64,000 nt of DNA from Mesorhizobium sp. B2-3-12 (lineage in GTDB: Bacteria; Pseudomonadota; Alphaproteobacteria; Rhizobiales; Rhizobiaceae). The DNA is taken from positions 744,001-808,000 of the forward strand of contig NZ_VFVR01000001.1 of assembly GCF_006442205.1 (NCBI RefSeq), read 5' to 3'. The notes beneath the pieces are model-generated. The model was not told the origin of the DNA and did no database searches. It was given only the letters and a program-made list of their open reading frames with translations. The position numbers and the translations under genes are program-made. This document shows, in pieces, positions 4,765 through 28,214 of this stretch; position 1 is the stretch's first letter; every line of letters begins with the position of its first letter.

Positions 4765-6678
4765 TTAAATGGCGACCTGCGTGCCGATTTCAACGACGCG
4801 GCCGGTCGGGATCTGGAAATACTCCGTCGCATCCGCCGCCGAGCGCGCCAGGCCGATGAACAGCCGGTCCTGCCATACCGGCATGCCGGAATTGGGCGAG
4901 GCTTTCAGGGAGCGCCGCGACAGGAAGAAGGACGTCGTCATGATGTCGAACTTCCAGCCTTGCTTGCGGCAGATCGCCAGCGCGCGCGGAATGTTGGGCT
5001 GCTCCATATAGCCGAAGGTCAACGTCACCCGCATGAACAGCTCGTTGACCGTCTCCATCTTGACCCGCTCGCTGTCGGGCACGACGGGCTGAGGAGCGGT
5101 CACCACCGAAAGGATGACGTTCTGCTCGTGCAGCACCTTGTAGTGCTTGAGGCTGTGCATCAGCGCGGTCGGCGCGCTCAAGGGATCGCTGGTCAGGAAC
5201 ACCGCGGTGCCCGACACCAGATGTGGCTTCTTCTTCAACAGATTGGCGGCCAGGAAATCGAGCGGGATCTCGTTGCGGCGCGTCTTGTCGAAGAGATAGC
5301 GGGTGCCGCGTATCCACGTCCACATGATCAGCCCCATCAGGCAGGCCACGGTGATCGATACCCAGCCACCTTCGACGATCTTCACGACATTGGCCAGGAA
5401 GAAGCCGCTGTCGATGACGCCGAACAGCAAGGTCAGCGCCAAAGCGAGCGCCAGCTTCCATTTCCACATCTTGCGCATGACCACGAACAGCAGGATCGTG
5501 GTCATCAGCATTTCGCCGGTCACCGATATGCCATAGGCGGAAGCCAGCGAACTCGAACTGCCGAAACCGACGACCAGCAGCATCACCCCCATCGCGATCA
5601 GCAGGTTGACGCGCGGCATGTAGATCTGCCCGGACTGCATTTCGGACGTATGCTGTACCTCGATGCGGGGCAGAAGATTGAGCTGCACCGCCTGGCGGGT
5701 CAGCGAAAAAGCCCCTGAAATGACCGCCTGGCTGGCAATGACGGTCGCGGCCGTTGCCAGTCCCACCATCGGCATCAGTGCCCAGTCAGGCAGCATCTGG
5801 AAGAAGGGATTGGTCGGTCTTCCGCCATTGGCGAGCACAAAGGCGCCCTGCCCGAAATAGTTGAGCAGCAGGCAGGGGAAAACCACGGAGAACCAGGCCA
5901 GCACGATCGGCTTGCGTCCGAAATGGCCGAGATCGACATAAAGCGCCTCGGCCCCGGTCACCGCCAGGAACACGGCGCCGACAGTGACGAAGGCGGCGGT
6001 GGGTGTGCTGGCCAGATAGGCGACCGCGTAATAGGGATTGATGGCCAGCAGGATCGATGGGTCGTCCAGCAAGTGATAGAGCCCCGCGACGCCGATGGCC
6101 AGGAACCACAGCGCCGTCACCGGCCCGAACACCGCCGCGACCTTTCCCGTGCCGAAGCGCTGCACGGAGAACAGGATGGCAAGGATGACCAGCGTGATCG
6201 GCACGACATAGGCGTCCAGCGTCGGGGTCACCACCGTCAGGCCTTCGACCGCCGACAGCACCGAGATGGCCGGGGTTATGATCGAATCGCCGAAAAACAG
6301 CGCCGCGCCGCAAAGTCCGATCACGAGGATCAGCCGGGCGCCTTTGGGATAGGCGCTGCGCGCCAGAGACATCAGCGACAGCGTGCCGCCTTCGCCCTTG
6401 TTGTCGGCGCGAAGCACGAAGGCGACATATTTGATGGTGACGATGATCGTCAGCGCCCAGACGATCAGCGACAGCACGCCTAGCACGTGAACGCGCGTAT
6501 CCATGCCGGGCGAAGCGTGAAGCGCCTCGCGGAAGGCGTAGATCGGGCTCGTGCCTATATCGCCATAGACGACGCCGAGCGCGCCCAGCATCAGAACCTT
6601 TGTGCTGTGCTGCTCGACCCCGGCATGGCTCGATTGCTCGACGGTTTCAGCCTCGCTCCCGCTATTGGCAAGGGCCAT
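4765..6678 (-). CDS. kup: KUP-family potassium uptake transporter, copy 2
   Basis: This 637-residue paralogue of the downstream kup has the same start context, [11 protein letters not shown], after GGGGAG, and the same KUP signature near residue 35. The membrane half differs clearly from copy 1, for example [21 protein letters not shown] against VASSGGQVADRGDILGVLSL. From [16 protein letters not shown] to the stop only four residues differ. Rhizobia often carry several kup genes, and tandem copies may differ in affinity or regulation. Recent gene conversion of the 3' part is the likely reason for the uneven divergence. Confidence 0.95.
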
Positions 6679-6776
6679 CGACCACTCCCCGACAAGCGCG
6701 CGGTGCTCTATGCATGCTGCGATACGACATCAAGGTGCACGCAATGGCTGCCATATTGCAAAGCGAAGCTCTACCC

Positions 6777-7517
6777 CTACCAGCCGCAAGCCTTGAGAAA
6801 CCGACCCACCGTGCCGGCCATGCCATACTCCAATGCGTCGGCTGTCAACCCATGTCCGATCGACACTTCGGCCAATGCCGGAACGCGCCTTGCCAGCGCG
6901 GGTAGATTGGCCACCGTCAGATCGTGGCCGGCATTGACCTGGAGACCGGCGGCAAAGGCCGCGTCGGCCGTTTTCCCCAGTCTTTCCAACTCCTTGGCCG
7001 CCTTGCCGGAATCGGAATGGTAACTGCCGTAAGGACCGGTATAGAGTTCGATGCGATCGGCGCCCGTATCGCGCGCGGCCGCTATCCCGGCGGGATCCGC
7101 GTCGGAAAACAGTGAGACCCTGAACCCGCCCTTCTTCAGACGCCTGACGACAGGCGTCAGGAACGCCGCTTGCGCCGCGAAGTCCCAGCCATGGTCGGAG
7201 GTCGCCTGTGCCGGATCGTCGGGCACCAGCGTCACCTGTTCGGGCTGATTCTTCTCCACGAGCGCCAGGAAATCCTCGCTTGGATAGCCCTCGATATTGA
7301 ATTCCGCCCGCGGGAATTCATCGTCGATCAGCGCCCTGATCAGAGGCAGGTCGGAATGCCTTGTATGACGTTCGTCGGGGCGCGGATGCACCGTCAGCCC
7401 ATGCGCTCCGGCGGCAAGGGCAAGGCGGCCGACACCGATCACATCGGGCCATGGCAGGTCGCGCCGGTTGCGCAGCATGGCGATGGCGTTGAGGTTGACG
7501 GAAAGCTTGGCGGGCAT
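6777..7517 (-). CDS. pdxJ: Pyridoxine 5'-phosphate synthase
   Basis: PdxJ condenses 3-amino-2-oxopropyl phosphate with 1-deoxyxylulose 5-phosphate to form pyridoxine phosphate in the DXP-dependent vitamin B6 pathway. The 246-residue TIM barrel starts at [19 protein letters not shown]. It carries [15 protein letters not shown] (active-site histidine and arginine), [28 protein letters not shown] and the terminal [12 protein letters not shown]. The length fits the family. An in-frame Met 26 codons upstream exists, but conserved homology begins at 7517. The ribosome-binding site before 7517 is weak. Confidence 0.95.
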
Positions 7518-7676
7518 GGTTTGGCGTCCGTGAAACAGGCGATCGAGGCGCGCCACGCTCATTCGTTCCGGCACGGCGCATTTGAGACGGCGCATCTATA
7601 GCGTCTTTGACGGGAACAGATAGGGCCTTTCCGGTGTTCCAGAAGACCAGGATATTCAGCGAAAGGAGGCACCGCC

Positions 7677-8111
7677 TTGAATTTCCTTCAATCCGTGCCG
7701 GCGATCCGCCGCATCGACACCAGCCGCGACGACCTTTTCGCCATCGATGTGGTCGGCCATGTCTCGGCCGCCGATGCCGAGAATCTGTTCGGCCTGCTGG
7801 AGGCGGCCTATTTGCTCCATCCGAGAATCGACGTGGCCGTGCGCATAATCGATCACGATGGCGTCGACTGGGTCGATATCTCCGATGAGACCATCAAGAA
7901 GGGCGCCGTTCACGCATTGGAACATATTGGCCGTTGCGCGGCGATCGGCACCCCTGACTGGACGCCGAACGCACGACACGCCTTGCCCGCTTCGTCGCCC
8001 GTCGAATTCAGGCATTTCAAGATCGAGGACGAAGCCGCTGCCTGGGAATGGCTCGGCGCGCGGCCGACGAGTGAGGAAGCCAAGGCCGCTCCCGCCGAGC
8101 CTTCTACCTGA
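7677..8111 (+). CDS. SpoIIAA/STAS-like protein
   Basis: The 144-residue protein starts at a TTG at 7677, supported by an AAAGGAGG ribosome-binding site at 7661-7668. The body (DLFAIDVVGHVSAADAENLF, then RIDVAVRIIDHDGVDW and IGRCAAIGTPDW) matches the SpoIIAA-like STAS-related family of small soluble proteins. A proline- and alanine-rich tail follows residue 125. It converges with the helicase gene at 8104, overlapping it by eight bases. The cellular role of this family is not established. Confidence 0.75.
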   Translation: MNFLQSVPAIRRIDTSRDDLFAIDVVGHVSAADAENLFGLLEAAYLLHPRIDVAVRIIDHDGVDWVDISDETIKKGAVHALEHIGRCAAIGTPDWTPNARHALPASSPVEFRHFKIEDEAAAWEWLGARPTSEEAKAAPAEPST

Positions 8112-9231
8112 CGATGGTCAGGCGTTCGGCGGCCCGGGTGATGGCTGTATAAAGCCAGCGCTGGCGCGTTTCCTTGAAAGCCCAGCTTTCGTCGAACAGC
8201 ACGATCTCGTTCCACTGCGAACCCTGCGCCTTGTGCACGGTCAGCGCATAGCCATAGTCGAAATCGTCGAAACGCTTCTTCTGCTGCCAGGGGATTTCGG
8301 CGTCGGGATCCTCGAACGCCGCCTTGAGCAGCTTGATCTTGGCGACACCGCGATCCGGATCGTCCTCTTCTGGCGAAACCAGAAGGTTGATGCCGGGCTT
8401 TATCGTCTCGCGCGACGAGGTCATCACCTTCCACAGTGACCCGTTGAGCAGGCCCTTGGCCGGATCGTTGCGCAGGCAGACCAGCTTGTCGCCCGCCTGT
8501 GGGTAATCGGCATTGAACCCCTTCAGTTCGCGCAGCCGCTTGTTGTAGCGTCGCCGCGTGCGGTTGGTGCCGACCAGCACCTGGTCCGCCTTCAACACCA
8601 GCTCCTGGTTGACGTCTTCCTTGCCGATCACCTGCGCCGTGCCATAGTCGCCCCGCATGAATTCGCGCCCCTCGCGCACATCGAGCGCCAGCCGGATGAT
8701 CGGATTGTCGCGGGCCTGCCGGTGAATTTCGGTCAGCAGCACATCCGGCTCGTGCTCGGTGAAATAGCCACCGCCCGAAATTGGCGGCAACTGCGCCGGA
8801 TCGCCCAGCACCAGGATGGGCGTACCGAAACTCTGGAGGTCGCGGCCAAGCTGCTCGTCGACCATCGAGCATTCGTCGATGACCACAAGCTTGGCGCGCG
8901 AGATCGGGCTTTGCCGGTTGAGCGAGAAGGTCGGCGACATCGAGGTTTTGCCGGTCACCTCGTCTTCGACCGATTCCTCGCCCTTGGGCCGGTAGATCAG
9001 CGAATGGATGGTGCGGGCATTGGTGGCGCCTTTGGAGCGCAGCACCTGCGCCGCCTTGCCGGTGAAGGCGGCGAACTGCACCTGCCCGTCGACATGTTCG
9101 GCGAAATGGCGCGCCAGCGTCGTCTTGCCGGTGCCGGCATAGCCGAACAGCCGGAAGATTTGCGGCCGGCCTTCCTTCAGCCAGCGGGCGACCGCCTGCA
9201 GCGCCTCATCCTGTTGGGGTGAAAATTCCAT
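8104..9231 (-). CDS. RecD-like ATP-dependent DNA helicase (UvrD/RecD superfamily 1B)
   Basis: The 375-residue protein starts at MEFSPQQDEAL. Walker A is GYAGTGKTT (residues 30-38), followed by FTGKAAQVLRSKGA (motif Ia), VIDECSMVD (Walker B, DExx), LVLGDPAQLPP (motif III) and the C-terminal UvrD_C2 element YALTVHKAQGSQWNEIVL with LYTAITRAAERL. The order and spacing match compact RecD-like helicases found as single genes in rhizobia, not the large RecD of RecBCD. No recB or recC partner is nearby. A role in DNA repair or processing is likely but not shown by context. Confidence 0.88.
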   Translation of the reverse strand: MEFSPQQDEALQAVARWLKEGRPQIFRLFGYAGTGKTTLARHFAEHVDGQVQFAAFTGKAAQVLRSKGATNARTIHSLIYRPKGEESVEDEVTGKTSMSPTFSLNRQSPISRAKLVVIDECSMVDEQLGRDLQSFGTPILVLGDPAQLPPISGGGYFTEHEPDVLLTEIHRQARDNPIIRLALDVREGREFMRGDYGTAQVIGKEDVNQELVLKADQVLVGTNRTRRRYNKRLRELKGFNADYPQAGDKLVCLRNDPAKGLLNGSLWKVMTSSRETIKPGINLLVSPEEDDPDRGVAKIKLLKAAFEDPDAEIPWQQKKRFDDFDYGYALTVHKAQGSQWNEIVLFDESWAFKETRQRWLYTAITRAAERLTIVR

Positions 9232-9372
9232 CAGATCGTGTGACCGGATTCGCGAGGCAAACACAAGACAGCCGCCATCATCAACGACACAGCCGATGGC
9301 GAACTCCCCTGCGGCTCAGGTTATCAGCCGCGAACAAGAACGTAAAGGGAACGACAAGGGCGACCGTGCACC

Positions 9373-9738
9373 TCAGCTGGTGGCGAGCGGATCGTTCTCC
9401 AGCAGGATCGGCCTGCCATGCGGCGTGGCATGCGCGGCGCGCTCCCAGGCCTGCGCCATCGCATCAACGTCAGGCTTGGCGGCAAACCCCTTCGCCGCCA
9501 GCAGCTTTTCCAGCGCCGCCAGCCAATGCTCGTAATAATCATGGCCGTCGGCGGCCGCACCCGGCCTCTTCACCTCGGCCGACAAGGCATCCGCCCATTC
9601 GCTCCACGAAAACAAACCCTTGTCGTGCAGCGCCACCGTCATGGCGAAGGCTTCGGCCTGCCATGGCTCGGCGAAAACAGGTGCGTCGAGCCCGGCGGGC
9701 AAACCGGCGGCGGGCCCGTTCGCCTCAGGCCGGCTCAA
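9373..9738 (-). CDS. Nitrile hydratase accessory protein
   Basis: This 121-residue protein follows the beta subunit and overlaps it by 14 bases. It starts at a TTG at 9738 behind GGGAGAG. The sequence (FAEPWQAEAFAMTVALHDKGLFSWSEWADALSAE and YYEHWLAALEKLLAAKG) resembles the N-terminal half of the beta subunit, as is typical of the small activator or metal chaperone of cobalt nitrile hydratases. It probably delivers cobalt to, or exchanges, the alpha subunit. No amidase gene is adjacent. Confidence 0.85.
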   Translation of the reverse strand: MSRPEANGPAAGLPAGLDAPVFAEPWQAEAFAMTVALHDKGLFSWSEWADALSAEVKRPGAAADGHDYYEHWLAALEKLLAAKGFAAKPDVDAMAQAWERAAHATPHGRPILLENDPLATS

Positions 9739-10384
9739 GATAACTCTCCCAGGCGTCGATCGAGACGGTCAATGTCGGGTCGGCGCCCTCGCCCCAGATT
9801 TCGCTCCCGTCGAAGACCACCGTGTAGACCCATTGCGGATTTTCGCCCCGGCCATGCGCGTTGCTGTCGGGAAAGACGAAGCCGTCGCGCACCGCCTCGA
9901 TCGTGCCCTGCTTGTCGCGCGCATAACGCGGCAGCCTTGTATGGCCGGTCGGGTTGAAGTTTTTGGTCCGCACCAGATCACCGGCCTTGAAGCGCGGCGC
10001 TGTGCCGACCGGCCGGTCGCACGGACCGCCCTTGGCCAGCACTGCCGGGACATTTTCCGCTTTCAGCACCCGTTTCGGGGTCGCCGCCGGATCGATCGCC
10101 TCGCCCGCCGCGAGATCGCGCGCGCTGACGAAACCATGCCGCTCGAGCAAGGTTTCCAGCGCCCTGATCCAGATCTCATAATAACTGGAGCCGTAATAGA
10201 CGGCCGGATGCAGCGATTCCCGCGCATGCCGGCTCTCGTCGATGTTCCAGGCGCCCATGGCGCCGGAACACAGCGTCACGCCAAGCGCCCGCCGCTCCCA
10301 GGCGGCATGGAAATAGGGCTCGTCCTTCTCTGGAGCAACCGGCCCGAAACCCATCTGCCCGCCGAGATCCTGCGGTCCGTTCAT
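9725..10384 (-). CDS. nthB: Nitrile hydratase beta subunit
   Basis: The beta subunit (219 residues) pairs with alpha to form the enzyme that hydrates nitriles to amides. The N-terminus [16 protein letters not shown] is diagnostic, followed by [18 protein letters not shown]. The C-terminal barrel has [32 protein letters not shown] and [18 protein letters not shown]. The start overlaps the alpha stop as ATGA, so translation is probably coupled. Its length is normal for the cobalt type. Confidence 0.95.
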
Positions 10385-18841: not shown

Positions 18842-20113
18842 ATGGATCACGCCCTCCTTGACGCAATCGCGGGCCTTTTCATCGATAGTGCCAAGCGTGG
18901 AGGTTTCAATGGGGTCGTAGCGTCCGTGCTACTGCAACTTGAAGCCAGTCCCGAAGTACTCCGCAGTGCGCTTTCAAAGCTGGTTCGAGACGGCCAGATC
19001 AGCGCCGTTTTCTCACGTGTGTCAGCAAACATGCACATTAAACGCCTTCCGGATCTTCCCATAGCGGAGCAGCAGGAACTACTAACGGCCGAGCCTCTGA
19101 ACGAGATTTGTGTGTATCCCACGGCATCAACAGTACAGCTGCGTGTTGATCTCAATGCTTGGCGAGATCGCCCCTTTAGCAAGGCTTTGCTGCTTGCGGA
19201 CCCTCAACTCTCTTTTCGGGCCTTCGACATGGGTGCGTTGGAACGATACATTTCCGATCCACGCTATGTCGTCCACTTCGCTGACTATATTGGAACGATG
19301 TCGATCGGTGACGAATACTTCGTGGACTCTCACCAACCCGAACGCGACATGGTTTCCCTGCAGACCTTTGGGCTTGGGTTTGATGACAAGCGAAATCCGT
19401 ATGTAGTAGTCTATCTACGTTACCTCGCGGGCCTGTCAGACGAACACCAAAAATACTGGCATAGCTACCTAGCCAGTGGCGACGTCCGCATTAGTGAGCC
19501 CTACTTCCGATCCAGCATCTACGGTGAGTACTGGAGAAACCGCTCCGTGCGCAATGCGATAGTGGAGGAAATGCGGCTAATCCGTGCGCTGACCAATGCG
19601 ATTTGGGGCAGGAGTTTGTTCCGCAATTCTATCGGAGGTGATGTTCCCATCGGTCTCACATCCTTCCTCCGTCCTACTGCAGAAAATTTCAATCGCTTTG
19701 TAATGGCATTAGATAAGCTACTATCTGAGGGCATCGACTCTAAATTTTTTGAGGGAAAGGTACCGCTTGAGACAGAAACCCTTCGCCCAGATGGAAAGAT
19801 CATTGTTCAGAACAAGGGAACGCTGACCCTACTGGAAGAATGGCTACTTGCGGAAATCGTCTGGGAGGATCCGGCCGCCTTCCGCGAAATAGTCATTCGG
19901 CCGTTGCGCAAAATACGCCGACTTCGTCAGACGCCCGCCCACACCTTCACCCTGGACAGCTTTTCGGAAGAATATCATAAGAAGCGAAAACAGCTGCTGT
20001 CGGACGTATTCAACAGCCTCTCCAACATACGAGCGACGTTCTCAAAACATCCGCTCGCTCACCATGTTCAGATACCGGATTGGCTCGACGGTGGTCGCAT
20101 CGACGTCTTCTAA
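18842..20113 (+). CDS. Orphan protein of unknown function, AT-richer accessory gene
   Basis: This 423-residue protein is not recognised. It has no signal peptide or membrane segment. The first 60 residues (LLQLEASPEVLRSALSKLVRDGQISAVFSR) could form a winged helix. The middle region is rich in Tyr, Arg and Asp (SDEHQKYWHSYLASGDVRISEPYFRSSIYGEYW), and a basic helical region lies near residue 370 (RPLRKIRRLRQ). Codon use is visibly less GC-rich than in flanking genes (runs such as AAATTTTTT), which suggests horizontal transfer. It stands alone between the ArsR gene and ilvH. A defence or regulatory role is possible, but nothing in the sequence proves it. Confidence 0.7.
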   Translation: MDHALLDAIAGLFIDSAKRGGFNGVVASVLLQLEASPEVLRSALSKLVRDGQISAVFSRVSANMHIKRLPDLPIAEQQELLTAEPLNEICVYPTASTVQLRVDLNAWRDRPFSKALLLADPQLSFRAFDMGALERYISDPRYVVHFADYIGTMSIGDEYFVDSHQPERDMVSLQTFGLGFDDKRNPYVVVYLRYLAGLSDEHQKYWHSYLASGDVRISEPYFRSSIYGEYWRNRSVRNAIVEEMRLIRALTNAIWGRSLFRNSIGGDVPIGLTSFLRPTAENFNRFVMALDKLLSEGIDSKFFEGKVPLETETLRPDGKIIVQNKGTLTLLEEWLLAEIVWEDPAAFREIVIRPLRKIRRLRQTPAHTFTLDSFSEEYHKKRKQLLSDVFNSLSNIRATFSKHPLAHHVQIPDWLDGGRIDVF

Positions 20114-20181
20114 GCCAGCAAGTTTGCATGCGCCATTCGCAAGGTATGGCGCCTGAATCCGCTAAAACGGAAGTGATGTTC

Positions 20182-20754
20182 CTACATCCCCTGTGGGCCG
20201 CGGTTCATCGCCGCCACGCCGGTGCGGCAGATTTCGACCAGGCCGAGCGGCTTCATGATGGCGATGAACTGGTCGAGCTTGGAGCCCTTGCCGGTGATCT
20301 CGAAGATGAAATGCTCGGTGTTGGCGTCGATGACGCTGGCGCGGAAGGCATCGGCGAGCCTGAGCGCCTCGACCCGGGAATCGCCGGTGCCGGCAACCTT
20401 GACCAGCGCCAGCTCGCGCTCCAGCGGCCGCTCCTGGCCAAGCTCGTGCGAGCGCACGGTCAGATCGACCACGCGGTGCACTGGCACGATGCGTTCGAGC
20501 TGGTTCTTGATCTGCTCCATCACATGCGGCGTGCCGCGCGTCACGATGGTGATGCGCGACAGGTGCTTCTCATGTTCGGTCTCCGAGACCGTCAGGCTCT
20601 CGATGTTGTAGCCGCGCCCTGAAAACAGGCCGATCACCCGGGCAAGCACGCCGGGCTCGTTGTCGACCAGGACGGAAAGCGTATGGATCTCGGGCCGCTC
20701 CGTCTCCTTGGCGATGAAGTAGGCCGAACCGGTGGGTTGAAGGTGCTGTGCCAT
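20182..20754 (-). CDS. ilvH: Acetolactate synthase small (regulatory) subunit
   Basis: The 190-residue regulatory subunit of acetohydroxyacid synthase gives the enzyme its valine feedback sensitivity. The N-terminal ACT domain is plain (HTLSVLVDNEPGVLARVIGLFSGRGYNIESLTV), followed by the C-terminal domain (REREL-type segments, HFIFEITGKGSKLDQFIAIMKPLG and VEICRTGVAAMNRG). It is the last gene of the ilvI-CHAT-ilvH unit, 39 bases after the CHAT gene. The usual direct ilvI-ilvH adjacency is broken here. Confidence 0.96.
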   Translation of the reverse strand: MAQHLQPTGSAYFIAKETERPEIHTLSVLVDNEPGVLARVIGLFSGRGYNIESLTVSETEHEKHLSRITIVTRGTPHVMEQIKNQLERIVPVHRVVDLTVRSHELGQERPLERELALVKVAGTGDSRVEALRLADAFRASVIDANTEHFIFEITGKGSKLDQFIAIMKPLGLVEICRTGVAAMNRGPQGM

Positions 20755-20793
20755 GGTCTTGTCCTGTGTCTGGCCGGTCTGTGGCCGGTTCTG

Positions 20794-23700
20794 TCAATGT
20801 TCAAAGAGAATGTAGGCGCTGGTCAATTCGGGCGCGAAGCCGTCGATCTTGCCGGCCCAGGCCTCGCGTTTGGTCTTGATGAAGGCATCGGCATAGCTGA
20901 TGCGGCCATCGAACAGGTTCTCGTAGAAGCGCGCCATGAATTGCATCGTCGCCGCGTCGTCGACTTCCTCGACGGTCAGCAGCGTGCGCCGCGCGCCGGC
21001 GACCGACAGCGCGAGCGGCAGGCCGCGCACGGTGGAGGTGACCCCGATATCGCCGAGCGCTGTGTCGCAGGCAGAAACCACGACGAGTTGCGAGGAACGC
21101 AGGTTCCAGCTCAACAATTCGCGCGCATAGACGATGTTGTCGCCGTCCCACTCCTTCGGCTCGTCCGCCGGCTTGGCATCGGACAGCACGAAGCCGGCAT
21201 TCATCAGCCGCTCGGACAGCCCTTCGCCGCGTTCGAAGAAGCCATGCGTCGAAAAATGCACGATCGCCTTGCCGTCGGCTGCAGCGCGCATCGCCGCCTC
21301 GCCGCCGTCATTGCCCTCGGCGAGTCGTACCGCCATGCCCTTGTCGCGGGCGAGCTTTGCGATCTTCTCGACCTCCGTGCGCGACCCCGGCAGGTAGCCG
21401 TCGCCGACACCGTTCCCGTAGAAAAGACCCCCCGCCAGAAGCATCGCGTCGCTGGCCGACGGCCGGTCTTGCCTGGCCCGGAATTCGTAGGCCTGCCGGC
21501 TGGTGGCCGTGTGCATGTCGACCAGTTCGCCCAGCCGCTTGCCGCCGCCCGGCCGCAGTTCTGCGAAATCGACCTGATAGAGAAAATCGGCGGGAATGAC
21601 GTAGAGCGCCTTGGCGTCCTTCGCGGCGTCGCCGAGGACAGTGGCGAGCTTGGCGGTGAAGCTTTGTCCCGAACCGGTCTTGCCCTTACGCGCGTCGACC
21701 GCATCGACTTCGATCACCTGTGCCGGCCCGGACGCGCGCGAGATCGTGGCGAAGACCCGGTATCGATCCGGCGTGCCGCCCCTGTCCGCTGGCCATTCGC
21801 CTATGATCGCCAAATCGACGATGACGTCGCCCTCGGCCGGCCTGGCAAGCGGCTTGGCCTCTTGCGGCGCGCTGTAGATCCACGATGCGACCGGTTGTTC
21901 GGCGCGCTTTTCCAACGCCGCGTTCAACGCCTTGCGGGAGTCCTCCATCGCCTGCCGCTGCGGTGCCAGCGCGTCCGTATAGAGCGTTGCCGTGACGACC
22001 TCGCGGAAGCGGCCGAAATTGCTGAAATAGGTCTTGATGAGGTCGCGAAGCGCCTTGTCGTCGGAGGTCTCGGCCTCGGCGCGCAACTGCCGCTCGGCGC
22101 CGCGCGTCAGCGTCTTCCAATTGTCGAGCATGGCGGCGAACAGGTCCGCCGCGTCTGCATTGCGGGTCGCGAAATCGGCGAGCGAGCCCAGCATGTCGTC
22201 GGCAAGGACGCGCTCGGCCTGCCCGGCGCGCAGGCTCCCCGAGGCCGACACGCTGGACTGCCCCCAGTCGAACATGACGGCGTCGAGCTTGCGGTAGCTG
22301 TCCACCGCGGCCTTGGGGTCCATCTTCTCCTGCAGCCTGGCCTGCGCGAGTTCGGCCTCGAAAGTCATCGGCTGCGCGTCGCCGAGGCTCTCCTTGGCGA
22401 TCGCCACCGCATGTTCGCGATAGGCTTCGGCATCCTCGGTCAGCCCCATCGCCTCCGCCTTGTCGGCGAAGAGGTCGAAGAAGGCCAGCGACTGCTCGAT
22501 ATCGGCGCGGTCGGTGAAATCGGTCGTGTCGCGCGCCTGGATCTGCTTGCGGCTCAATTGGCGCTCCCCAAGACGCAGTTGCGCATAGGCCTGCCAGCGC
22601 TCGATCTGCCTGCGGTAGCCCTCGTTGAACCCCGGCTGGACAACGATCCCGGAGATCACCGCCAGCACCGACCGGGCATCCTTCCAGCGCTCGGCCTCGA
22701 GCAGGTCGTGCGCCATGTTCATGGCCGAAATCACCGTGTCGCCGGCGCCGCCGCCAAGCGCCTTGAAGCGCTTGTCGTAGGCGTATTTGTCGAATTCGAG
22801 TGCCGCGGCCGGCAATTTCAGCGAGCGCAGCACCGCGGCGCGGTTGTTCATCATGCGCCAGAGATCGGCATTGTCCTCGCCCAGAGACTTCAGGCCGGTC
22901 TCGTAGATGAACTGGTAGGCGGCCTCCGCCGACGCGAGCTGACCCCAGGCATGCAGCGTCTGCGCCAGCCCGTCATAGGCCGACAGGGCCTCGGTGCTTC
23001 CCATGCCGAAATGATCGGCCAGGATGTTCAGGGCGCGCAAACCGAACCGGTTGGCCTGGTCATACTCCTTCTGGTCGCGCAGAAAGGCGGCGAGGTTGAA
23101 CTGGAGGAACCCCGGGCCCGGCCCGGTATCGGTCTCCATCAGGTTGGAATCGAGGCCGCGCTGGAAGATGCGCTGCGCCGCATCGGCGTCGGCAAAACGG
23201 TTGAAGCTGTCGCCGGCCTGCCCGACCGTCTTGAAGAACAGATCGCCATGGCCGCCGAGTTCCATCGCATTGAGCGCCGACAGCAGCCGTTTTTCGGCGA
23301 CGTCGGCGCGCTTGGCGGTGAGCTGCGAATAGGCGGCGTCGACACGCGCATTGAGCGAGTCTTCCGAATCCGGACCAGACCGCTGCGCGATCGCCTCGAC
23401 ACGTAGGTCGAGCAGCCTGTCCTGTTCGTCCGCCCGGCCTATGCGGCCGGCGGCGTCGGCCAGAAGCAGCGCGAACTCGTCCGCGCGCGTCTGGTCCAGG
23501 TCGCGGATGATGCCGTCCGCGCGCCCGATCAGCGTGTCGTGGAGGTCCTGCCATTCACCGGCGAACATGTCGGCCCGCGCCAGCATGTAGCCGGCATAGG
23601 CGGCCGCTTTCGGATCGCGCCTGGCGAAACTTCCGTCCATCAGGGCCAACGCCTTCTTGCGGGCGCCGGCAAAATCCGATTTGCGGATCGCCGTCTCGAT

Positions 23701-23883
23701 CGCCTGGATCTCCGGCGGCCAGGGCGCGGCCTCCGTGTTCGTGGAGGTCCGCGCGCCGGTCGCCGGCGAGGCCTGTTCGGCCAAGGCGGCCGTGGCCGAT
23801 GCAAAGGTAAGCGCGCCCGCCAGCGCGAGACGCACTATTCGCCGGCGCGGCGAACAGATCGTGGCAAGGTCCGGACGCGCCAT
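20794..23883 (-). CDS. Secreted TPR-CHAT domain protein (caspase-like)
   Basis: The protein has 1029 residues. The N-terminus RRRIVRLALAGALTFASATAALA is a Sec signal peptide, predicting export. A long alpha-helical region of degenerate tetratricopeptide repeats spans roughly residues 50-600. The C-terminal CHAT domain (about 720-1029) holds the His-Cys pair in VHFSTHGFF (His about 880) and VVVSACDTALG (Cys about 939). CHAT is a caspase-fold peptidase family. The ATG at 23883 was chosen; a TTG six codons upstream is possible. The gene sits between ilvI and ilvH on the same strand, which is an unusual place. Its substrate and role are unknown. Confidence 0.88.
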   Translation of the reverse strand: MARPDLATICSPRRRIVRLALAGALTFASATAALAEQASPATGARTSTNTEAAPWPPEIQAIETAIRKSDFAGARKKALALMDGSFARRDPKAAAYAGYMLARADMFAGEWQDLHDTLIGRADGIIRDLDQTRADEFALLLADAAGRIGRADEQDRLLDLRVEAIAQRSGPDSEDSLNARVDAAYSQLTAKRADVAEKRLLSALNAMELGGHGDLFFKTVGQAGDSFNRFADADAAQRIFQRGLDSNLMETDTGPGPGFLQFNLAAFLRDQKEYDQANRFGLRALNILADHFGMGSTEALSAYDGLAQTLHAWGQLASAEAAYQFIYETGLKSLGEDNADLWRMMNNRAAVLRSLKLPAAALEFDKYAYDKRFKALGGGAGDTVISAMNMAHDLLEAERWKDARSVLAVISGIVVQPGFNEGYRRQIERWQAYAQLRLGERQLSRKQIQARDTTDFTDRADIEQSLAFFDLFADKAEAMGLTEDAEAYREHAVAIAKESLGDAQPMTFEAELAQARLQEKMDPKAAVDSYRKLDAVMFDWGQSSVSASGSLRAGQAERVLADDMLGSLADFATRNADAADLFAAMLDNWKTLTRGAERQLRAEAETSDDKALRDLIKTYFSNFGRFREVVTATLYTDALAPQRQAMEDSRKALNAALEKRAEQPVASWIYSAPQEAKPLARPAEGDVIVDLAIIGEWPADRGGTPDRYRVFATISRASGPAQVIEVDAVDARKGKTGSGQSFTAKLATVLGDAAKDAKALYVIPADFLYQVDFAELRPGGGKRLGELVDMHTATSRQAYEFRARQDRPSASDAMLLAGGLFYGNGVGDGYLPGSRTEVEKIAKLARDKGMAVRLAEGNDGGEAAMRAAADGKAIVHFSTHGFFERGEGLSERLMNAGFVLSDAKPADEPKEWDGDNIVYARELLSWNLRSSQLVVVSACDTALGDIGVTSTVRGLPLALSVAGARRTLLTVEEVDDAATMQFMARFYENLFDGRISYADAFIKTKREAWAGKIDGFAPELTSAYILFEH

Positions 23884-23922
23884 GTTCTCGGCCGCAAGCA
23901 AAGCCTAGGTCCCTATCCCGGT

Positions 23923-25719
23923 CTACACCAGTTCCCTGCCCTTGGCGTCGATGGCATTGGCCACGGCCTCGTCGGTGGCCTCGTCGGGCAACAGCATCTC
24001 ATTGTGCGCCTTGCCCGAAGGGATCATCGGGAAGCAGTTGGCCAGTGTCGCCACGCGGCAGTCGAACAGCACCGGCTTCCTGACCGAGATCATCTCCTTG
24101 ATCGCATCGTCCAGCTCGTCGGGCTTCTCGCAGCGAATGCCGTGGCCGCCATAGGCCTCGGCCAGCTTGACGAAATCAGGCATCGCCTCGGTGTAGGAAT
24201 GCGACAACCGATTGCCGTGCAGCAATTGCTGCCACTGGCGCACCATGCCCATATACTGGTTGTTGAGGATGAAGATCTTGATCGGCGCGTCGTGCTGCAC
24301 GGCCGCACTCATCTCCTGCATCGTCATCTGCACCGAGGCGTCGCCGGCGATGTCGACGACCAATGCGTCGGGATGCGCGATCTGCACGCCGAGCGCGGCC
24401 GGCAGGCCGTAACCCATCGTGCCCAGGCCGCCCGATGTCATCCAGCGGTTCGGCTTGTCGAAATGATAATGCTGCGCCGCCCACATCTGGTGCTGGCCGA
24501 CCTCGGTGGTGATGTAGGTGTCCATGTCCTTGGTCAGTTCATAGAGCCGCTGGATGGCGTATTGCGGCATGATCACGTCGTTGTTCATCTTGAAGGCGAG
24601 TGAATCGCGCGCGCGCCATTTGGCGATCTGCTCCCACCAGGGATAGAGCGCCTTCTTGTCGGTCTTGGCGGTCGCCCGCCACAGCCGCACCATGTCTTCC
24701 AGCACCCGGCCGACATCGCCGATGATCGGCACTTCGGTGTGGACGTTCTTGTTGAGCGAGGACGGATCGATGTCGATATGGATCTTGCGCGAGTTCGGCG
24801 AAAAAGCGGTCAACCGTCCGGTGATGCGATCGTCGAAACGCGCGCCGATGCAGATCATGACGTCGCAATCATGCATGGCCATGTTGGCTTCGTAGGTGCC
24901 GTGCATGCCGAGCATGCCCAGCCAGTTCTTGCCTGACGCAGGATAGGCGCCGAGACCCATCAGCGTCGAGGTGATCGGGAAGCCGGTGAGATCGACCAGT
25001 TCGCGCAGGAGATGGCTCGCTTCCGGACCGGAATTGATGACACCGCCGCCCGAATAGATGATCGGCTTCTTGGCGCCAGCCATCAGTTCGACCGCGGCCT
25101 TGATCTTCTCCAGGTCACCCTGGACCTTGGGCTGGTAGCTGGTGCGCGGCGCGATCTGCGGCGGGACGTAGGTCCCCCTGGCGAACTGCACGTCCTTCGG
25201 GATGTCGACCACCACCGGACCGGGACGGCCGGTCGTGGCGACATGGAAGGCCTCATGGATGGTCGCGGCGAGCTCGTTAACGTCCTTCACCAGCCAGTTG
25301 TGCTTGGTGCAGGGCCGCGTGATGCCGACCGTGTCGCATTCCTGGAACGCGTCGGAGCCGATCAGCGAGGTCGGCACCTGGCCGGTGAGACACACCAGTG
25401 GGATCGAATCCATCAGCGCGTCCTGCAACGGCGTGACAGCATTGGTGGCGCCCGGACCCGAAGTCACCAGCATGACGCCGGCCTTGCCGGTCGAGCGCGC
25501 ATAGCCCTCCGCCGCATGGCCCGCGCCCTGCTCGTGCCGCACCAGAATGTGCTCGACCTCTTCCTGCTGGAAGATTTCATCGTAGATGGGAAGGACGGCG
25601 CCGCCGGGATAACCGAAGACGTGCTTGACGCCATTGTCCTTCAGCGCCTGCACCACCATTTCGGCGCCCGTCATTTCCCTGCTTGCCATCTCGCGCCGCT
25701 CGCTCTGTCCATTGCTCAT
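23923..25719 (-). CDS. ilvI: Acetolactate synthase large (catalytic) subunit
   Basis: The 598-residue ThDP- and FAD-dependent enzyme makes acetolactate and acetohydroxybutyrate, the first common step of valine, leucine and isoleucine synthesis. The catalytic glutamate lies in LVRHEQGAGHAAEGYARSTGK. The FAD-region motif is VTSGPGATNAVTPLQDALMDS, and the ThDP motif is GDASVQMTMQEMSAAVQHDAPIKIFILNNQYMG. The start at 25719 (MSNGQSERREM) was preferred to one 21 codons upstream because it gives the usual length. It is preceded by a leader peptide and terminator, so attenuation is likely. Confidence 0.97.
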   Translation of the reverse strand: MSNGQSERREMASREMTGAEMVVQALKDNGVKHVFGYPGGAVLPIYDEIFQQEEVEHILVRHEQGAGHAAEGYARSTGKAGVMLVTSGPGATNAVTPLQDALMDSIPLVCLTGQVPTSLIGSDAFQECDTVGITRPCTKHNWLVKDVNELAATIHEAFHVATTGRPGPVVVDIPKDVQFARGTYVPPQIAPRTSYQPKVQGDLEKIKAAVELMAGAKKPIIYSGGGVINSGPEASHLLRELVDLTGFPITSTLMGLGAYPASGKNWLGMLGMHGTYEANMAMHDCDVMICIGARFDDRITGRLTAFSPNSRKIHIDIDPSSLNKNVHTEVPIIGDVGRVLEDMVRLWRATAKTDKKALYPWWEQIAKWRARDSLAFKMNNDVIMPQYAIQRLYELTKDMDTYITTEVGQHQMWAAQHYHFDKPNRWMTSGGLGTMGYGLPAALGVQIAHPDALVVDIAGDASVQMTMQEMSAAVQHDAPIKIFILNNQYMGMVRQWQQLLHGNRLSHSYTEAMPDFVKLAEAYGGHGIRCEKPDELDDAIKEMISVRKPVLFDCRVATLANCFPMIPSGKAHNEMLLPDEATDEAVANAIDAKGRELV

Positions 25720-25782
25720 CGGTCTGGTCCCGTACTGTCCGCCATCTGGCGTTTGCTGGTCGTTTAGTCGTGTTTCAGGCAA

Positions 25783-25805
25783 TAAAAAAGGCCCCCGAGG
25801 GAGCC
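25783..25805 (-). terminator. ilv attenuator terminator
   Basis: Read on the minus strand, GGCTCC-CTCG-GGGGCC forms a 6-bp stem (one G-T pair) with a tetraloop, followed at once by TTTTTTATT. It lies between the leader peptide stop and ilvI, about 64 nt before the start codon. It is a classic intrinsic terminator in attenuator position. Confidence 0.85.
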
Positions 25806-25839
25806 TGTGTGTTGCGCATGGGAGGTTTTCGCCCGGCGG

Positions 25840-25890
25840 TTACACCGCCTTGCCCACGCGCCTTCCTACGAGAATGAGTGCCGTTTTCAT
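25840..25890 (-). CDS. ilv leader peptide
   Basis: The 16-residue frame MKTALILVGRRVGKAV ends in TAA, 34 nt before the attenuator terminator. Six of its sixteen residues are branched-chain (L, I, L, V, V, V), the end products of the pathway encoded downstream. A hairpin of GGCGG and CCGCC spans its stop codon and could act as the pause structure. In ribosome-mediated attenuation, stalling at Leu, Ile or Val codons prevents the terminator from forming. No strong ribosome-binding site is visible upstream of the ATG, which lowers certainty slightly. Confidence 0.82.
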   Translation of the reverse strand: MKTALILVGRRVGKAV

Positions 25891-26086
25891 GGTGGCGGAC
25901 CATAAAGGCGAACGCGCGGGGTCGTCAATGGGGTACGGCACGAATTCACTCAGCCGTGAGATCGGCTCCGCCGCGCGCTACCATAGTACAGTTGAGCCCG
26001 TCTCGTCGACGCACCACTATGCCAGGCCAGTTGCCGGCCTGCCGATGTCGTTAGCCGGGCTGACGACATGTCTGGGAGGACGAGGT

Positions 26087-26350
26087 TTGGCAGGCGAACG
26101 GGAGCATATCCGTGAGATCGAGCAGGTCCTGTCCGGCGGGCGATCGGCGCGCGACGAGGTCGTGGTGAAGTCGTGGCTGCGCTGTGTCGGCACCCATCGC
26201 CTCGACCCGGCCAGACCGACCGAGGCCTATATCGTGCCCGATACCCAGTTGCGCGAACACCGCGAACAGTCCGAGCGGCTGATCGCCATCGCCCGCAGCG
26301 GCCTGGAGACGCTTTTCAAGCAGGTGGCAGGCCAGAACTACGTGCTCTAG
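26087..26350 (+). pseudogene. Truncated AcoR-like sigma-54 activator (N-terminal fragment)
   Basis: A TTG at 26087 follows GGGAGGA and opens an 87-residue frame. It reads EREHIREIEQVLSGGRSARDEVVVKSW, then RLDPARPTEAYIVPDTQLREHREQSERLIAIARSGLETLFKQVAGQNYVL, and then stops. This matches the N-terminal region of AcoR/GAF-type enhancer-binding proteins, cut off where the GAF core should begin. The AAA+ and Fis domains are missing, and the flavin monooxygenase follows after 28 nt. The reading is a deletion remnant that kept its start signals. An expressed short peptide cannot be excluded. Confidence 0.7.
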
Positions 26351-26378
26351 GCACGATCTGGCGCCTGGAGGAGGAGCC

Positions 26379-28214
26379 ATGAACCCGACAACCGGAGGAG
26401 AAACCATGCTCGAAAGAACACCCACCACGAAGGCGCAGGCGCTGCTCGACAAGTTCGGCAAGGCGCTGGAGACCGGCGACATCGATGCGGCGGCCAATTG
26501 CTTCCAGGCGGATTGCTACTGGCGCGACCTCGTCACCTTCACCTGGAACCTGAGAACGATGGAGGGCCAGGACCAGGTCCGCGACATGCTGAAGGCGACG
26601 CTGGCCGAGACCGGGCCGAGCGACTGGAAGGTGGCGCAGGGCGAGGAAGCGACCGAGGCTGATGGCGTCACCACCGCCTGGATCACCTTCGAGACCAAGG
26701 TGGCGCGCGGCTTCGGCCTGGTGCGGTTCAAGGGCGAGCTGATCTGGACCTTGCTCACCACCATGGCCGAACTCAAGGGCCATGAGGAGAAAGCCGGCTT
26801 CACCCGTCCGCTCGGCGCCAAGCATGGCCATGGCAAGGACAGGAAATCCTGGCGCGAGGAGCGTGACGACGAACTCGCCGAGCTTGGCCGCGGCAAGCAA
26901 CCTTATGTCGTGATCATCGGCGGCGGCCAGGGCGGCATTGCGCTCGGCGCGCGCCTGCGCCAGCTTGGCGTGTCGGCTATCATCATCGAGAAGAACGAGC
27001 GTCCCGGCGATTCCTGGCGCAAGCGCTACAAGTCGCTCTGCCTGCACGATCCGGTCTGGTACGACCATCTGCCCTATATCGACTTCCCCAAGAACTGGCC
27101 GGTCTTCGCGCCGAAGGACAAGATCGGCGACTGGCTCGAGATGTACACGAAGGTGATGGAGCTGAACTACTGGTCCTCCACCTCGGCGAAATCCGCGAAA
27201 TATGACGAGAAGGCCGGGGAATGGACCGTCGTGGTCGAACGCGACGGCGAAGAGATCGTGCTTAGGCCCAGGCAGTTGGTACTGGCCACCGGCATGTCCG
27301 GCAAGGCGAACTGGCCGAAATACAAGGGCCAGGACATCTTCAAGGGCGAGCAGCAGCATTCCTCGACCCATCCCGGCCCGGACAAATACCGCGGCAAGAA
27401 GGTCGTGGTCATCGGTTCCAACAACTCCGCCCACGACATCTGCGCGGCTCTGTGGGAGGCAGGCGCGGACGTCACCATGGTGCAGCGTTCCTCCACGCAC
27501 ATCGTCAAGTCCGACACGCTGATGGATATCGGGCTGGGCTCGCTCTATTCCGAGCAGGCGGTCGAGAACGGCATGACGACACGCAAGGCCGACCTCATCT
27601 TCGCCTCCCTGCCCTACCGCATCCTGCACGAATTCCAGATCCCGCTTTACCAGCAGATGAAGGAACGCGACGCCAAGTTCTACGCGGATCTGGAAAAGGC
27701 CGGCTTCCTGCTCGACTGGGGCGATGACGAATCGGGCCTGTTCATGAAGTATCTTCGCCGTGGTTCGGGATACTACATCGATGTCGGCGCCTGCGACCTC
27801 GTCATCGACGGCTCGATCAAGCTCAAGAGCGGACCGGGCGCGGCGGTGGAGGAGCTGACGCAAACCGGTGTCAAATTCGTCGATGGAAGCGAGTTACCGG
27901 CAGATCTGGTGATCTACGCCACCGGCTACGGCTCGATGAATGGCTGGGCGGCGGACCTCATCTCGCAGGAGGTGGCGGACAAGGTCGGCAAGGTCTGGGG
28001 TCTTGGCTCCGACACCGCCAAGGACCCCGGCCCCTGGGAAGGCGAGCAGCGCAACATGTGGAAGCCGACCCAGCAAGAGGCGCTGTGGTTCCACGGCGGC
28101 AACCTCCACCAGTCGCGCCACTATTCGCAGTATCTGGCGCTGCAGCTGAAGGCCCGGCAGGTCGGATTGCCGACCCCGGTCTACGGGCTGCAGCAGGTCC
28201 ATCACAAGGCTTAG
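26379..28214 (+). CDS. Flavin-containing monooxygenase with N-terminal NTF2-like domain
   Basis: The protein has 611 residues, or 602 if translation starts at the second ATG (26406); both starts follow GGAGGAG. Residues 15-150 form a SnoaL/NTF2-like domain (ALETGDIDAAANCFQADCYWRDLVTFTWN). The FAD Rossmann motif is VIIGGGQGGIALGARL near residue 180, and the NADPH motif VVVIGSNNSAHDICAAL lies near 345. YATGYGSMNGW near the end completes the class B monooxygenase pattern. It probably oxidises an organic nitrogen, sulfur or ketone substrate. The AcoR-like fragment upstream may be what remains of its activator. Confidence 0.85.
   Translation: MNPTTGGETMLERTPTTKAQALLDKFGKALETGDIDAAANCFQADCYWRDLVTFTWNLRTMEGQDQVRDMLKATLAETGPSDWKVAQGEEATEADGVTTAWITFETKVARGFGLVRFKGELIWTLLTTMAELKGHEEKAGFTRPLGAKHGHGKDRKSWREERDDELAELGRGKQPYVVIIGGGQGGIALGARLRQLGVSAIIIEKNERPGDSWRKRYKSLCLHDPVWYDHLPYIDFPKNWPVFAPKDKIGDWLEMYTKVMELNYWSSTSAKSAKYDEKAGEWTVVVERDGEEIVLRPRQLVLATGMSGKANWPKYKGQDIFKGEQQHSSTHPGPDKYRGKKVVVIGSNNSAHDICAALWEAGADVTMVQRSSTHIVKSDTLMDIGLGSLYSEQAVENGMTTRKADLIFASLPYRILHEFQIPLYQQMKERDAKFYADLEKAGFLLDWGDDESGLFMKYLRRGSGYYIDVGACDLVIDGSIKLKSGPGAAVEELTQTGVKFVDGSELPADLVIYATGYGSMNGWAADLISQEVADKVGKVWGLGSDTAKDPGPWEGEQRNMWKPTQQEALWFHGGNLHQSRHYSQYLALQLKARQVGLPTPVYGLQQVHHKA

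Follow-up and report, generated by a model that had tools for sequence, protein, structure and literature searches.

Most of what is known of the CHAT caspase-like proteases describes switches in the cytoplasm or bound to a membrane. Csx29, the TPR-CHAT protease of the type III-E CRISPR system (Craspase), acts in the cytoplasm together with Cas7-11 and RNA, and eukaryotic separase is a cytoplasmic or nuclear enzyme under securin control. The present analysis concerns a 64,000-nucleotide stretch of Mesorhizobium sp. B2-3-12 DNA (contig NZ_VFVR01000001.1, positions 744,001 to 808,000; hereafter the window). Between the acetolactate synthase genes ilvI and ilvH, it holds a gene for a TPR-CHAT protein that is predicted to be exported and that is best read, from comparison of sequences, as one cargo of a recurrent ilvI-ilvH insertion slot. 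The accounts of activation in two reports describe Csx29 as activated allosterically through its TPR part (PMC10028731, PMC9729208). DdvA, a transmembrane protein, is presented as an anti-sigma factor of M. xanthus DdvS (PMC4374960), and HetF of filamentous cyanobacteria as a putative protease with an active site required in vivo (PMC8406250). The fold and the dyad of the protein are already known.

All features of the operon lie on the minus strand, in the order leader (25888-25774), ilvI, CHAT gene, ilvH. The catalytic subunit gene ilvI occupies 23923..25782 as its longest frame, with a probable start at ATG 25719 (Pfam TPP_enzyme N, M and C), and the regulatory subunit gene ilvH occupies 20182..20754 (Pfam ALS_ss_C and ACT_AHAS_ss). 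The CHAT gene, delimited from sequence and Pfam, covers 20794..23901, with its stop at 20794-20796 and its start at either TTG 23901 or ATG 23883. Its frame is intact and encodes 1029 residues from the ATG or 1035 from the in-frame TTG. As the TTG is kept in 4/4 orthologues and the ATG in 3/4, translation may start 18 bases upstream of the ATG and the protein may have 1035 residues; the ATG numbering is used throughout. The gap to ilvI is 39 bp from the ATG and 21 bp from the TTG, and the gap to ilvH is 39 bp. Coordinates and Pfam thus agree with the first-pass annotation, a note made from the letters alone, which had described a 1029-residue CHAT protein encoded between the two genes, in the same orientation and at short distances. 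The gene is real: its frame is intact over 1029 codons, the Pfam E-value is low and three orthologues share the site, which together exclude chance. It is the single CHAT match in this genome.

The protein starts with a Sec-like signal sequence (residues 1-35; 23779..23883) whose anatomy, read by eye, comprises an Arg-rich n-region, the hydrophobic segment LALAGALTFASATAALA and a cleavage-like site between ALA and E. The stretch before the hydrophobic segment is only about 12-18 residues long. Sec-like N-termini were also seen by eye in all 4 orthologues and in the relatives with credible starts, some aligned relatives starting too far upstream for the N-terminus to be judged. The Sec signal noted at first pass is consistent with this N-terminal anatomy, and the CHAT protein is probably exported. 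The signal is followed by a TPR-type solenoid (residues 57-659; 21907..23715), helical in the AlphaFold2 model and matching Pfam TPR_12 at 262-324. Then comes a caspase-like CHAT region (residues 686-1029; 20797..21828), modelled as strands and helices over 686-1028 and matching Pfam CHAT (PF12770) at residues 753-996 with E 6e-34 and 118.2 bits against a cut-off of 24. The catalytic residues His880 (codon 21244..21246) and Cys939 (codon 21067..21069; the sole cysteine after the signal sequence) stand where the first-pass annotation had placed them, in the same TPR-CHAT architecture, and both are invariant across 21 aligned rows. The dyad is retained in 24/24 full-length distinct relatives, that is, 29 alignment rows minus three duplicates and two pieces of the locus L162, so that the loss in homologues which would have spoken against the initial proposal was not seen. 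In L162, the CHAT gene is split between frames and its C-terminal piece retains both dyad residues. The invariant dyad suggests that the CHAT domain is a putative cysteine protease. NCBIfam gave only a sub-threshold FxSxx_TPR match for the protein.

Of 146 Mesorhizobium genomes, 16 match the protein at E 1e-60 and 4, the window genome included, hold a copy between ilvI and ilvH. Identity of the other three copies to the window protein is 86, 83 and 74%. These orthologues, found in a Mesorhizobium metagenome-assembled genome, in M. comanense and in Mesorhizobium sp. 1M-11, all lie between the two genes on the same strand, and the search for related loci gave nothing beyond them. The ratio of nonsynonymous to synonymous substitution rates (dN/dS) between carriers is 0.14-0.18 (5/6 pairs computed), indicating purifying selection. 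A chance insertion or a pseudogene is ruled out by this ratio together with the three same-site orthologues. The CHAT dS between carriers, 0.33-1.14, equals or exceeds that of ilvI and ilvH; high dS with low dN/dS argues that the arrangement is old and has been kept.

In a tree of 63 ilvI-ilvH sequences (the ilvI of row L088 being partial), the carriers stand in three places, which requires at least three changes. A recent spread with long recombined flanks was rejected, as carrier flanks are not closer to each other and the CHAT dS is not reduced. Indeed, in pairwise windows over the ilvI 3' and ilvH 5' ends, the other carriers are no closer to the window genome than the non-carriers L096, L116 and L129 are. 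The same ends of the carrier L044 are nearer to the non-carriers L101 and L140 than to the window genome. When 50 equal-length rows, without the window genome and L042, were ranked against L044, non-carriers were nearest in every window and the carrier L043 came 8th in one. With the recent spread rejected, the three-place pattern is left between two histories: the gene may have been shared from early on and then displaced by the plain allele, or it may have been gained several times long ago. Carriers and non-carriers share no recognisable ilvI-ilvH spacer, and deletion alone would therefore not restore the plain one.

Upstream of ilvI, a consensus scan found the promoter-like site TTGACG-18-TATGGT (25899..25928), the only minus-strand match of its kind within 20100-26400. 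It is followed by an ilvI leader/attenuator-like RNA (25774..25888; Rfam RF02502 Atu_C8, 100.9 bits against a gathering score of 50, E 6.8e-22) that contains the frame of a leader peptide, MKTALILVGRRVGKAV (25840..25890), with codons for Leu, Ile and Val, and a terminator-like hairpin with a T tail, found by terminator scan (25789..25806). RF02502 is also present in L042, L043 and L044, hence in all 4 carriers together with a leader peptide, as well as in two non-carriers tested; the peptide is identical in L042 and L043 and reads MNKTVLILVGRRVGKAV in L044. From the leader-peptide frame and the hairpin and T run that come after it, we infer a branched-chain amino-acid attenuator, in line with the shared leader region proposed at first pass. 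A separate ilvH promoter would have contradicted that proposal; no sigma-70-like site was found on the coding strand from the leader to ilvH in the window, nor in L042 over 5900-9800. The CHAT gene is probably transcribed together with ilvI and ilvH, given the same strand, gaps of at most 39 bp and no promoter-like site between the genes.

The statement of the first-pass annotation that ilvI and ilvH are normally adjacent held only in part across the family. In the 145 Mesorhizobium genomes with both genes, the gap, read by eye here as in the family, is about 3.15 kb in 4 (the CHAT gene), about 1.1 kb in 2, about 0.75 kb in 3 and 65-215 bp in 136, so that the spacer holds genes in 9/145. The 1.1-kb inserts are a 328-codon gene with a Sec-like N-terminus (L079:5464-6450 and L135:5293-6279; 2/146 genomes), the product of which gave only sub-threshold LpqN-like matches in Pfam. 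In two distinct Mesorhizobium lineages it stands in place of the spacer. The 0.75-kb inserts are AbrB/MazE-PIN modules, assigned by Pfam in L112 and by similarity in L219 and L220. Among the short spacers of the genus, several of the longer ones that were sequenced hold a palindromic element. This element, of about 50-60 bp (GAGCATGATGCCGAAAAGTG...), was observed just past the ilvI stop in L097, L098, L125, L126 and L133.

Outside the genus, the gap is at least 250 bp in 37 of 111 family genomes (L182-L218, all 37 examined), a count made without 2 genus genomes, G463 (no ilvI at threshold), G521 and G511 (separate contigs) and 5 genomes with no ilvH match. A PIN toxin frame is present in 13 of the 37 loci, with an AbrB-type partner called in 10, and an EamA-type transporter frame in 15; 28/37 have PIN or EamA. 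An opposite-strand gene of one family occupies 5/37 (L197, L202, L207, L213 and L216), one of them also with EamA. Signal-peptide-like N-termini were noted for these opposite-strand genes, which gave no Pfam match in L197 and a doubtful one in L202. The remaining loci hold two small related frames, a glutathione S-transferase (GST), a DUF559 protein and, in one case, unclear content. Cargo was assigned by Pfam on 10 representative proteins from eight loci and by BLAST linkage for the others. In L204, a gene for a pyridoxal phosphate-dependent enzyme (L204:1018-2028; Pfam PALP, possibly threonine dehydratase) shares the gap with an EamA gene. Between genera, the PIN toxins of the slot share 27-70% identity, a spread suggestive of either repeated capture or rapid divergence. 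The conserved pair hflK-hflC was taken from the window as a control, and its gap reached 250 bp in 0/60 genomes among the matches listed (Fisher p 1e-8). These comprise 57 genomes with both halves listed and 3 with one continuous match, read by eye; 2/60 belong to the genus, and a large ilvI-ilvH gap is present in 18 of the remaining 58. The neighbourhood survey suggested at first pass gave a double answer: the CHAT insertion recurs in 4 genus genomes, and the gap is often filled by other cargo. With unrelated cargo in the same gap elsewhere, the position of the CHAT gene does not by itself speak for a part in valine synthesis, and of the two readings, passenger or valine regulator, the former is the likelier.

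The other 12 of the 16 genus matches form a second CHAT family, 29-30% identical to the window protein, and three further members are visible as split matches. As the window protein, its members (e.g. L080:6243-9065) have a Sec-like signal, TPR, CHAT, the same dyad and a similar length, but they are located near ilvC and outside the ilvI-ilvH gap. In the loci examined (L075, L078, L080, L081, L083, L085, L087, L090, L092, L094 and L157), the gene lies between a flavin adenine dinucleotide (FAD) monooxygenase and a GST gene in 11/11, with ilvC near in 10/11, the contig of the remaining one being too short. M. comanense carries both families, and the window genome is without the second. Both CHAT families were thus observed near ilv genes, one in the ilvI-ilvH gap and one near ilvC; in complete contigs the second lies 15-23 kb from ilvH. 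On Shinella and Paracoccus plasmids, relatives lie singly amid unrelated genes, with no ilv genes in the four annotated regions (a fifth record carries no annotation), which fits a self-sufficient protein. In L163, the locus of one more distant relative, the gene directly upstream of the exported CHAT gene (L163:8003-8317) encodes a small protein with a PAAR motif and an N-terminus resembling a signal.

These data bear on a functional coupling, in which branched-chain starvation would open the leader and raise ilvI, CHAT and ilvH together, the exported protease then freeing amino acids or an envelope signal. Such a coupling would account for the Leu, Ile and Val codons in the leader that precedes the genes in all 4 carriers, for an arrangement that persisted down to 74% protein identity and for the second family beside ilvC in other strains. 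Nevertheless, unrelated genes such as the PIN toxin modules occupy the same gap, the annotated plasmid relatives have no surrounding ilv genes and only 4/146 genus genomes have the CHAT gene at this site. The link of the protease to valine synthesis, drawn at first pass from position, is not supported, given the same cargo and the same four plasmid neighbourhoods, and we regard the coupling as unlikely, although it is the strongest of the alternatives.

The predicted structure allowed comparing the protein with the known systems. The AlphaFold2 model, built from 21 sequences, has a mean predicted local distance difference test (pLDDT) of 81.5 and a predicted template modelling score (pTM) of 0.75, with helices over 57-659 and a mixed domain over 686-1028. 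Foldseek placed DdvA on top (8rot, E 3.8e-11) and separases next. Craspase TPR-CHAT/Csx29 shares the N-terminal TPR solenoid and the C-terminal caspase-like CHAT domain with a His-Cys dyad, at 10-13% identity in structural alignment. It differs by its CRISPR genes, whereas the window protein has a Sec-like signal and an ilv operon context; cas7-11/gRAMP and csx30 were not among the 5 proteins or the gene calls around the locus. The protein works at most like Craspase and was not classed as a member. One separase aligned with a root-mean-square deviation of 3.7 over 283 residues, its caspase-like protease domain likewise coming after a helical region, but separase is not exported. HetF, which gave CHAT its name, also combines CHAT and TPR within one protein; however, its CHAT part is N-terminal (residues 1-555) and accompanied by one transmembrane segment, while that of the window protein is C-terminal behind a cleavable-looking signal. 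DdvA, the structure of which is known here from PDB titles (8rot, 8rw5), has a TPR-like and CHAT fold, and a literature search for DdvA and CHAT gave no relevant title among the matches listed.

The likeness to Craspase raises the possibility of a role in defence or cell death, with a protease of Craspase-like or gasdermin-activating type that would sit in the operon by happenstance. The patchy distribution over three tree places and the use of the slot by toxin-antitoxin modules would suit such a role. On the contrary, PADLOC-DB 2.0.0 gave 0 families for the protein at E 0.01, its Sec-like signal argues against it and no cell-death or defence partner was recognised among the genes adjoining the CHAT gene in the loci called, which makes a defence role improbable. 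A pseudo-protease or envelope ligand sensor using CHAT for signalling as in DdvA appears equally doubtful: the CHAT profile alone finds DdvA first among PDB entries (E 1.8e-5), and DdvA is also the top Foldseek match, but the invariance of His and Cys in 21 aligned relatives favours catalysis, the gene had no sigma factor noted next to it and the protein is without the transmembrane-plus-cytoplasmic anti-sigma part of DdvA, Pfam finding no anti-sigma domain in it.

The explanation that we favour, with moderate confidence, is that of an exported TPR-CHAT protease, an old cargo of the ilvI-ilvH spacer, driven by the ilv promoter and acting in the envelope rather than on acetolactate synthase. 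Position, strand, leader, dyad, purifying selection and recurrent use of the slot are all apparent at the sequence level. From the ilv promoter, transcription would pass the branched-chain amino-acid leader to give an ilvI-CHAT-ilvH transcript, and the CHAT protein would then leave the cytoplasm. Its TPR solenoid would bind a ligand or partner and thereby switch the C-terminal CHAT domain with its His880-Cys939 pair, which by its predicted fold would be a cysteine protease of separase/Craspase type. Since acetolactate synthase is cytoplasmic and would be out of reach of an exported protein, the protease would cut an envelope substrate of its own. The spacer in this bacterial family has acquired accessory genes again and again, and the CHAT gene would be an old cargo among them.

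Several observations weigh against this explanation. Although the 4/4 orthologues have one cysteine (Cys939) after the signal where 6.9 would be expected from window frames, this census fits export weakly, other window frames also holding 0-1 cysteines. A weak terminator-like match lies just within the start of the CHAT frame (23827-23812), terminator-like matches in the region being 3 against 3.9 in shuffles, and the leader folds no better than shuffles (z -0.91). The VIA-align Z scores (21-22 for Craspase TPR-CHAT, the best of the matches, 20.6 for DdvA, about 20 for separase) are approached by TPR-only proteins, which also reach Z 20, so that the whole-length fold match leans partly on the solenoid. 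Finally, hflK and hflC overlap or abut and may tolerate insertions less than ilvI-ilvH does.

A more far-reaching proposal, which we put forward tentatively and with low confidence, is that the ilvI-ilvH spacer of Rhizobiaceae-type bacteria may be a cargo bay in an amino-acid-attenuated operon, repeatedly capturing toxin-antitoxin modules, EamA exporters and secreted proteins, the expression of which would rise on branched-chain amino-acid starvation. The CHAT protein would then be an envelope protease dosed by starvation and the first TPR-CHAT so wired. Elsewhere in the window, a 423-residue frame (18842-20113, plus strand) convergent to ilvH has a third-position guanine-plus-cytosine content of 0.57, below its neighbours, and gave no match in Pfam or NCBIfam.

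Among open-licence PMC papers, no paper was found on an ilvI-ilvH insertion slot, nor on an exported, apparently soluble TPR-CHAT protein in an amino-acid operon. A small family of soluble-looking exported CHAT proteases with intact active sites, inherited within a core biosynthetic operon, would widen the range of places in which proteases of this kind act. In addition, the extra sequence in the gap of one third of the sampled genomes outside the genus provides an example, open to testing, of an operon that recurrently receives insertions and whose regulation the inserted genes would gain.

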